Position numbers and translations under genes: made by a program. 64,000 nucleotides of DNA from Mycoplasma parvum str. Indiana (GTDB lineage Bacteria > Bacillota_I > Bacilli_A > Mycoplasmatales > Mycoplasmoidaceae): assembly GCF_000477415.1 (NCBI RefSeq), contig NC_022575.1, positions 248,001-312,000 of the forward strand, read 5' to 3'. The notes beneath the pieces were generated by a model that was given only the letters and a program-made list of their open reading frames with translations, did no database searches and was not told the DNA's origin. Shown here in pieces: positions 61,537 to 64,000 of the stretch. The first letter of the stretch is position 1; the number at the start of each line of letters is the position of its first letter.

Positions 61537-62406
61537 TTAATTTTTGTTTATTAATTTTGAAATATTTTTAATTAATTCTTCTTCAGAGGAAAATGAAGGA
61601 ATATTTAATGAATATTCCTCTAATAAAGAATTACCTAATTGAATAGAAAAAGGGGGAGTTAGAGATAATTCTTTAAAAAAAGAAGCTGGTAGCTTAAATA
61701 ATTCTTTAACACTTTTTAAATGAGAAACAATTTTTCCTTTGGAAAAAATAATTATCTCATCAGCTTGTAATAATTCTTCCATATCGTGAGTAATTGAAAT
61801 TACAGTTTTCTTGTAATCTACAACTAATTGTTTCATTAATTTAACAATTTGTTGTTTTTCTGTTGGGGAGAGTAAAGAACTAGATTCATCAAATAAAAAT
61901 AATGCTGGATTAAAAGCCAAAACAGAGGCAATAGCAATTTTTTGTTTTTGCCCTCCAGAAAGAATAGCTGGAGATTTATTTTTTAAATCTTCTAAATTTA
62001 AAGCTTCAATTAATTCAGAAACTATTTTGGACATTAAAGCTGGAGGAACTTTTTTATTTTCAAGACCAAAAGCTAACTCTTCTTCAATTGAAGAAGTAAT
62101 GAACTGACTATCAGGATTTTGAAAAACCACTCCCAAAAAAGAGAAAATTTGTTGATAATTTATTCTAGTTATAGGCTTATTGAAAATATGAATAGTTCCT
62201 GATTGAGGCTTTAATAAACTTGTCAAAAGTTTTGAAAAAGTTGATTTACCAGAACCATTATGCCCTACTATACAAAAATATTTTTCAGAATCAAGCGAGA
62301 TAGATAAATTTTTTATAAAAGGTTTATTTTTTGTATAAGAAAAGCAAAGTTTATTAACCTCTATAGCTTTTACTTTTTCCCCTCTTCGGGGATTTTCTTG
62401 TGAAAT
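61537..62406 (-). CDS. ecfA: ECF transporter ATP-binding protein
   Basis: Energises vitamin/cofactor uptake with EcfT; about 289 residues. Walker A GHNGSGKSTFSKLL, Q-loop VFQNPDSQFI, signature LSGGQKQKIAIASVLA, Walker B LFLFDESSSLLSP, switch His SITHDMEEL. The Walker B Pro is Ser, and the D-loop Asp is Ser (SLLSP instead of SxLDP). No ATG/GTG/TTG fits: ATT at 62406 or ATA at 62364 must start translation. Partner A subunit not seen. Confidence 0.91.
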   Translation of the reverse strand: MSQENPRRGEKVKAIEVNKLCFSYTKNKPFIKNLSISLDSEKYFCIVGHNGSGKSTFSKLLTSLLKPQSGTIHIFNKPITRINYQQIFSFLGVVFQNPDSQFITSSIEEELAFGLENKKVPPALMSKIVSELIEALNLEDLKNKSPAILSGGQKQKIAIASVLAFNPALFLFDESSSLLSPTEKQQIVKLMKQLVVDYKKTVISITHDMEELLQADEIIIFSKGKIVSHLKSVKELFKLPASFFKELSLTPPFSIQLGNSLLEEYSLNIPSFSSEEELIKNISKLINKN

Positions 62407-62545: not shown

Positions 62546-62797
62546 CTAGCCAGTTTCTCCCTTGTCTTTTTTTAACTCCTTAGTTTTGGCTTTTAAATAT
62601 TTAACTAAATAGAAAATAACAACTGAAGTAATTTGAAAAATTACGATTGACCAATGTTGAGCTATCCAAGCAAGTATAAAAAGAACGATATAAAAAATTC
62701 AAAAAATTACTAAAAATATCTTTTTTAATAATAATTTCGCTAATATTACTAGATATTTTGGAATTAATTTCCAATCAAAACTTCAACGAAAATTCAA
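62546..62797 (-). CDS. Small two-helix membrane protein within the ECF cluster
   Basis: 83 residues from TTG at 62797, overlapping no other gene except for 8 bases downstream of ecfT. Two helices: IFLVIFWIFYIVLFILAWIA and SIVIFQITSVVIFYLV, then a Lys-rich tail ending KGETG. TTG lies in a tandem repeat TTCAACGAAAA (plus strand). Could be a small accessory of the ECF transporter; unrecognised. Confidence 0.55.
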
Positions 62798-62804
62798 CGA
62801 AAAT

Positions 62805-64000
62805 TTAGAGAGAAAGTAAGAGAATAGGATCTACTCATTTAAAAGGAGAGAAATAATAAGAACCAAAAACAAAGTAATAACACATAATAATATAGAATAT
62901 TATTCCTCCAAACATAACTAATTGAGGTTTAGTTAAGGAATAGTTTTTAAATCTAGTTCTATTTTCTTTAGGTAAATAGGCTCTCGAAGTCATTGCATTA
63001 GCCAACTCTCTAGATTTAATCATCGAAATAATGAATAAAGGTATAAATAATGAAAGAAAAGCTGTCATTTTATCCACAAATCTTCCATTTTTAAAATCAA
63101 TTCCTCGACTAGATTGAGCTTTGGTTATTCTAATTGCTTCTAAAAGAAGAGAAGGAATGAATCTTATAGCTAAAGAAATAATAAGAGTAATTTCCTTCAC
63201 AGGAATTTTTAATGCCGCTAAAGGTCTTATTAATTCTCCTACAGCAAAAGTAAAAGAAGTCAAATCTGTAGTATGGCTTAATGCTCTTGAAAGAGCAATA
63301 ATCATAGTTAATTTATTTGCCATATTAAAAGCCAGAATAAATTGTAAGGCAGTTAATGTATATCATTTAGGGAAAAATACTACAACTTTTTTATCTCCTT
63401 CTTTACTGGTTACGTAAAACGCTTTATAATTTTTTCCTTCCAATCTATTTTTAATACAACCACCATTATTTTTGCAGCAATTTGTAGTTGCTTGTTCTGC
63501 AGTGCACTTACATAATTGCTTTAATTCTTCAATATTGTTGGCAGAAACAATATTATTTTTGCCTCCCGCACTTTTGCAAGTGCAATTGCAATCAGACACA
63601 GTTTCACAACAACTCTTTAAAACTTCTCCTCCAGCAAATCAACCAACTTTAATTCCTTCTTGTTGAACGCTATTCTGGTTATTTCCTCTACCAAAAAAAG
63701 AAAAAGGTTTTTGAGTAAATAAATTCTGGAATTTTATAGCAAAATCTGAATAAGTGCTTGTTAAATAATCATTATCTCAAAAACCTGGATTTTTATTAAA
63801 TATTCAATTAATGCAAAAAAGAAATAAATAAATTCCTATAAAAAGTACAACTAATTTTCTTCATAAATCTTTAAGGCAGCCAGATAAAAAAAGAATAATA
63901 ATTGTAAAGCCAATTAATAAAAAATGTAAAAATATTCCCAATTTAGAAAAAACTAGGAATACAGAAAGAATAAAAATAATCAATTTAAGCAAAGGGTGCG
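62805..64000 (-). CDS. ecfT: ECF transporter membrane subunit EcfT with a cysteine-rich insert, 5' end outside the window
   Basis: Coupling membrane subunit for vitamin/cofactor uptake; 398 codons visible, N-terminus cut. Starts HPLLKLIIFILSVFL (first helix). After helix 4, LFCINWIFNKNPGFW, there is an insert of roughly 130 residues with ten Cys: KSCCETVSDCNCTCK, LCKCTAE, NCCKNNGGC. Then LTALQFILAFNMANKL and the coupling helices: LIISLAIRFIPSLLLEAIRITKAQSSRG (family ARG motif) and RELANAMTSRAYL. Ends SPFKWVDPILLLSL after a TGA Trp. The insert would face outside the cell, if the usual topology applies. Confidence 0.88.

Follow-up and report, generated by a model that had tools for sequence, protein, structure and literature searches.

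The closest described relatives of this locus are the solved EcfT subunits of group II ECF transporters (8bms, 7nnu, 5d3m and 4huq), in which the loop between the third and the fourth transmembrane helices (TM3 and TM4) is short. The EcfT of Mycoplasma parvum str. Indiana resembles them in its fold, in the motifs of its coupling domain and in being encoded in an operon with two EcfA ATPases, but its TM3-TM4 loop has 136 residues and contains ten cysteines. We studied this protein in a window of 64,000 nucleotides (NC_022575.1, bases 248001-312000) taken from a genome with a published length of 564,395 bases (PMC3869333). The coordinates of the features discussed here are given in Table 1. Hemoplasmas, the group to which M. 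parvum belongs, are unculturable and lack a cell wall. We take the hemoplasma genus of M. parvum to include also M. suis, and the names used below for comparison genomes (M. suis, M. genitalium and M. haemofelis) are putative.

Table 1. Positions of the ecfT features in the window and of the other cysteine-rich loci
Feature	Position	Strand	Basis or remark
ecfT coding frame	62805..64000	-	extends 76 bases outside the window, as far as an ATG
TM3-TM4 insert, residues 101-236, 136 aa, predicted extracellular	63369..63776	-	67-EcfT alignment, model
Ten-cysteine core, residues 156-207	63456..63611	-	
Loop scaffold, first half, GWFAGG stretch	63612..63776	-	matches the family WGG motif
Loop scaffold, second half: helix 208-214, strands 218-223 and 229-235, then TM4	63369..63455	-	model
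EcfA2-type ATPase	upstream of ecfT, 23-base overlap		TIGR04521/PRK13631-type
EcfA1 ATPase frame	61537..62403 (L002:4538-5404)	-	downstream of ecfT; TIGR04520, E 1.1e-81
83-aa hydrophobic ORF	62546..62797	-	between ecfT and EcfA1; without family match
Hemoplasma FtsH loci	L138 (G000:C1:558133-560403), L137, L139-L146		
PTS IIBC permease loci	L198:6440-8311, L211:6600-8324, L207:15660-17564		
tpiA-adjacent hydrophobic protein	L109:13751-14794 (genome C1 about 513751-514794)	-	

The EcfT subunit and its TM3-TM4 loop

The M. parvum protein is an ordinary EcfT, the scaffold subunit of group II ECF vitamin importers. The first-pass annotation, made from the sequence alone, had described an EcfT with the usual helices and coupling motifs, and each of these elements was recovered. 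The full frame (L002:5806-7077, 423 aa, genetic code 4), whose minus-strand part within the window spans 62805-63998, matches the Pfam profile PF02361 with 71.4 bits, against a curated cut-off of 25 (E 1.1e-19). A structure model built from 66 EcfT sequences (pLDDT 82.7, pTM 0.83; a seven-sequence model gave pLDDT 40.7) contains five transmembrane helices and the three-helix coupling domain, and its best matches in the PDB are EcfT chains (8bms_C: Z 17.0, rmsd 4.3, 256 aligned residues, range 6-406). Both coupling motifs of the X-R-G type are found. The first is S-R-G at residues 323-325, with R324 and G325 invariant across 66 EcfT; the second is S-R-A at 364-366, which departs from the strict A-R-G and has a nearly invariant R365. 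The two EcfA ATPases flank ecfT, in the order EcfA2-EcfT-EcfA1. The search for ECF S components identified one FolT-like protein per genome, with scores below the curated cut-offs. A thioredoxin gene lies directly upstream of this sole detected S component in all seven genomes of the genus (L087:977-2352 and matching loci).

The insert starts directly after TM3 and stops at TM4, which places it between two membrane segments in both the alignment and the model, as had been proposed. The interval first given for it, 63360-63640, includes the ten-cysteine core and leaves out about 130 bases on the N-terminal side of the loop. In the structure of ECF-FolT, the N-terminal end of TMH3 is on the cytoplasmic side, along the release path (PMC4820897), so that the C-terminal end of TM3, and hence the insert, would face out. 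The TM3-TM4 loop of EcfT is accordingly placed by homology to solved EcfT and predicted to face the outside of the cell, in line with the first-pass annotation. The model gives the loop a small domain, with the two strands listed in Table 1 and a short helix (182-188); pLDDT is about 89-90 in the block of residues 211-230 and moderate in the cysteine core (block means 64-85). A profile of the loop had no match among PDB sequences, and the Pfam search with the seven loops of the genus returned no match above noise and no metallothionein family. The same profile retrieved only EcfT, and no paralogue, in the seven genomes of the genus, and gave one weak match besides.

Cysteines of the loop across EcfT proteins

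The comparison included 67 distinct EcfT proteins. Loop length is 128-145 residues for the hemoplasma genus of M. parvum (seven genomes), 69-169 for a further 39 EcfTs from the family (a group that leaves out one second, short-looped EcfT) and 5-51 for 20 proteins from the rest of the order. The M. parvum loop is like those of other family members, including the putative M. genitalium, in being long and in carrying a WGG-type consensus motif, but it is unlike those from outside the hemoplasmas, which have 0-3 cysteines. The long TM3-TM4 loop is an old trait, probably already present in the ancestor of the family. Because it is found across the whole family, only the cysteines are new in the hemoplasma genus. 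The initial remark that no such domain was known in EcfT is thus partly right: the domain is absent from Pfam and from PDB sequences, but the long loop is family-wide and the novelty lies in its cysteines.

The ten cysteines (residues 156, 157, 163, 165, 167, 189, 191, 200, 201 and 207) fall within 52 residues and are spaced by two CC and three CxC steps, including C-N-C-T-C and C-K-C, which bears out the cluster first reported (C-x-C-x-C, C-K-C and two CC pairs). EcfT has three other cysteines (67, 88 and 399). Proteins encoded in the 64-kb window contain 1.03% cysteine, and shuffling of EcfT placed ten cysteines within 57 residues in 1 of 20,000 trials. A denser patch occurs in just one other ORF out of 236 (about 264 kb of M. 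parvum, window included); the patch ranked after that ORF and EcfT belongs to the zinc-finger chaperone DnaJ, recognised by sequence.

Six of the seven genus genomes have ten cysteines in the loop and one (G004) has eleven. The counts are 2, 4 and 4 for the three species sampled from the sister hemoplasma genus and 0-3 for all remaining EcfTs; these counts come from related species and are not independent. The alignment with the EcfT of related mycoplasmas, a check proposed by the first-pass annotation, shows the ten-cysteine cluster to be kept in the genus and absent from the others.

Cysteine-rich domains in other hemoplasma proteins

The domain of FtsH between TM1 and TM2 lies outside the cell. 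It contains 14-22 cysteines in 10 out of 10 hemoplasmas (18 in the putative M. suis genome) versus 0-1 in 21 other members of the family, one of which (L151) has a domain that is not delimited and is represented by its whole N-terminal segment, with one cysteine. The FtsH tree groups the ten hemoplasmas with support of 100/99, and the neighbour G007 has no cysteine in the domain. The FtsH domain, which includes CCCCC runs, is like the EcfT loop in lineage, membrane side, abundance of cysteines and paucity of aromatic residues, but unlike it has denser cysteines and longer runs, and the two share no detectable sequence relation. A cysteine-rich insert is also found in the glucose-type PTS IIBC permease, with 24 and 25 cysteines per protein in two further genomes. 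The permease of M. parvum has a weaker insert (16 cysteines), and the putative M. genitalium homologue has two cysteines in total and no insert. Finally, a hydrophobic protein encoded beside tpiA has 14 cysteines in 57 residues (a CCC/CCCC/CCC loop) in M. parvum only; the putative M. suis orthologue has a serine run in place of the patch.

The EcfT cluster looks like an instance of cysteine-rich outer domains having been gained throughout the hemoplasmas. That these clusters are shared within the lineage and absent from its relatives suggests a lineage-wide surface adaptation, for which we infer a single origin. Relatives among the Firmicutes avoid cysteine in exported proteins (PMC9974433), which makes the hemoplasma patches unusual. 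A literature search of incomplete coverage, mostly without subscription papers, returned no report of cysteine-rich EcfT or FtsH in hemoplasmas.

The scan for cysteine-rich proteins was made on sampled genome stretches, and in this partial sample most of the densest patches, likely zinc-binding proteins aside, belong to membrane or exported proteins. The one exception looks soluble. It is a 103-aa, His-rich, metallothionein-like ORF with 31 cysteines in the putative M. suis genome (L209:17687-17998, minus strand); it adjoins a 119-aa cysteine-rich ORF, near an endonuclease IV gene, matches no Pfam family and lacks homologues in the stretches sampled. An exported-looking protein of the putative M. 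haemofelis genome (L184:4132-5145, plus strand) has a cysteine-rich stretch (CCKQGTSCTCEAGKCPVGCIGCCPSTSC), and its paralogue adjoins on the other strand. The PTS frame at L211 starts late, with its upstream part in another frame. A cysteine-rich ORF of the putative M. genitalium genome (L204) looked like an antisense frame and was set aside by eye.

Possible state and role of the cysteines

We propose that the variable middle of the ancestral long EcfT loop would have become a ten-cysteine knob in the genus of M. parvum and, presumably, M. suis, and that the loop of the PTS permease and, in both hemoplasma genera, the FtsH extracellular domain would have changed in the same way. The cysteines would pair in the oxidising environment of blood, without dedicated Dsb or VKOR, and the disulfides would close the host-exposed loops of a wall-less cell into compact, protease-resistant knobs. 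To this proposal as a whole (old loop, cysteine knobs in several proteins, disulfides oxidised by the host, and protection) we assign a probability of about 0.5. That the lineage gained cysteine-rich outer domains in several housekeeping membrane proteins (FtsH, EcfT and PTS), departing from the cysteine avoidance seen in exported proteins of its relatives, and did so without known thiol oxidases, with blood providing the oxidant or the metal, seems to us slightly better than an even bet. We found no match to DsbA or VKOR in 12 genomes, while control genomes were matched; each genome has one thioredoxin, and the one inspected lacks a signal sequence. The disulfide state and the protective role of the loops are what we infer from the whole. 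Cysteine counts are even in 6 out of 7 EcfT loops and 9 out of 10 FtsH domains. Among species that are relatives of one another, this would favour pairing to a limited degree, and the eleven cysteines of G004 would count against it.

The loop could instead be a metallothionein-like metal-thiolate site for zinc, copper or another soft metal, buffering or capturing it near lysing red cells, which we consider rather unlikely. None of the 52 residues of the M. parvum core is aromatic, and the cores of all seven species of the genus have 0-2 aromatics, no histidine and a filler rich in Lys, Gly and Ser. The few aromatics, together with the CC/CxC spacing and the CCCCC runs of FtsH, would also suit metal-thiolate sites, and the near absence of aromatics and the CCCCC runs look more like such sites than like a typical disulfide fold. 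A reduced or metal-bound state is likewise compatible with the absence of DsbA and VKOR matches, and the separate 31-cysteine ORF points in the same direction. The EcfT core is like metallothioneins in its spacing and its near lack of aromatics, but unlike them has only 19% cysteine, is part of a membrane protein and matches none of their families. Moreover, thiols outside a wall-less cell should oxidise in blood, the patches of FtsH and of the PTS permease are ill-suited to metal uptake by an ECF transporter, and the single S component that the search identified resembles FolT. The first-pass annotation had offered metal capture or host contact as a possible function of the EcfT insert. This idea fares poorly in view of the same S component and of the analogous patches in FtsH and the PTS permease, which weaken the case for metal capture specific to the EcfT transporter. 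Since the loops are exposed to an oxidising fluid outside the cell, we give disulfides roughly twice the probability of metal.

Another explanation is that the patches are functionless, low-complexity expansions drifting in tolerant outer loops. The loops diverge fast, with 34-46% identity to the M. parvum EcfT among members of the genus, and the patch of the tpiA-adjacent protein, replaced by serines in the putative M. suis, behaves as drift would predict. But invariance is much more frequent among the cysteine columns of EcfT than in the rest of the loop (8 out of 10 versus 12 out of 126 other columns, Fisher P 2e-6, in the best of four alignments; 7 out of 10 in the other three), and the FtsH domains retain their many cysteines in all ten hemoplasmas. 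This makes drift improbable.

A scenario to which we give slightly less weight still is that the cysteines form intermolecular bridges, which would produce a disulfide-linked layer stiffening the wall-less envelope, as in Chlamydia. Several membrane proteins of a single lineage have cysteine-rich outer loops, and shear in blood would be a plausible stress. The chlamydial cysteine-rich envelope proteins are also at the surface of a bacterial parasite and are reported to form disulfides; they differ from the hemoplasma proteins in being outer-membrane proteins of cells with a periplasm, and are unrelated to them. Against such a layer, few proteins have these patches in the sampled stretches, even counts fit internal pairing equally well, and FtsH and EcfT are not known to be abundant at the surface. 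Finally, no evidence was found that the cysteine stretch belongs to a separate gene, results from a frameshift or is cytosolic. Of these readings, the separate gene and the cytosolic side are outcomes that the first-pass annotation had listed as refuting it. We deem all three very improbable, since the stretch lies in a single open frame in seven species (no internal stop in M. parvum, cysteines kept in frame in the six others), the EcfT fold extends on both sides of the insert, and the FtsH patches are in a domain that is outside the cell.

Little is known of how the wall-less surface of hemoplasmas copes with blood, and the shared cysteine patch is a concrete, testable adaptation in this respect. 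It is also relevant to the handling of extracellular cysteines by bacteria that have neither Dsb nor VKOR, and diagnostics could make use of the FtsH and EcfT domains, which are conserved and exposed.
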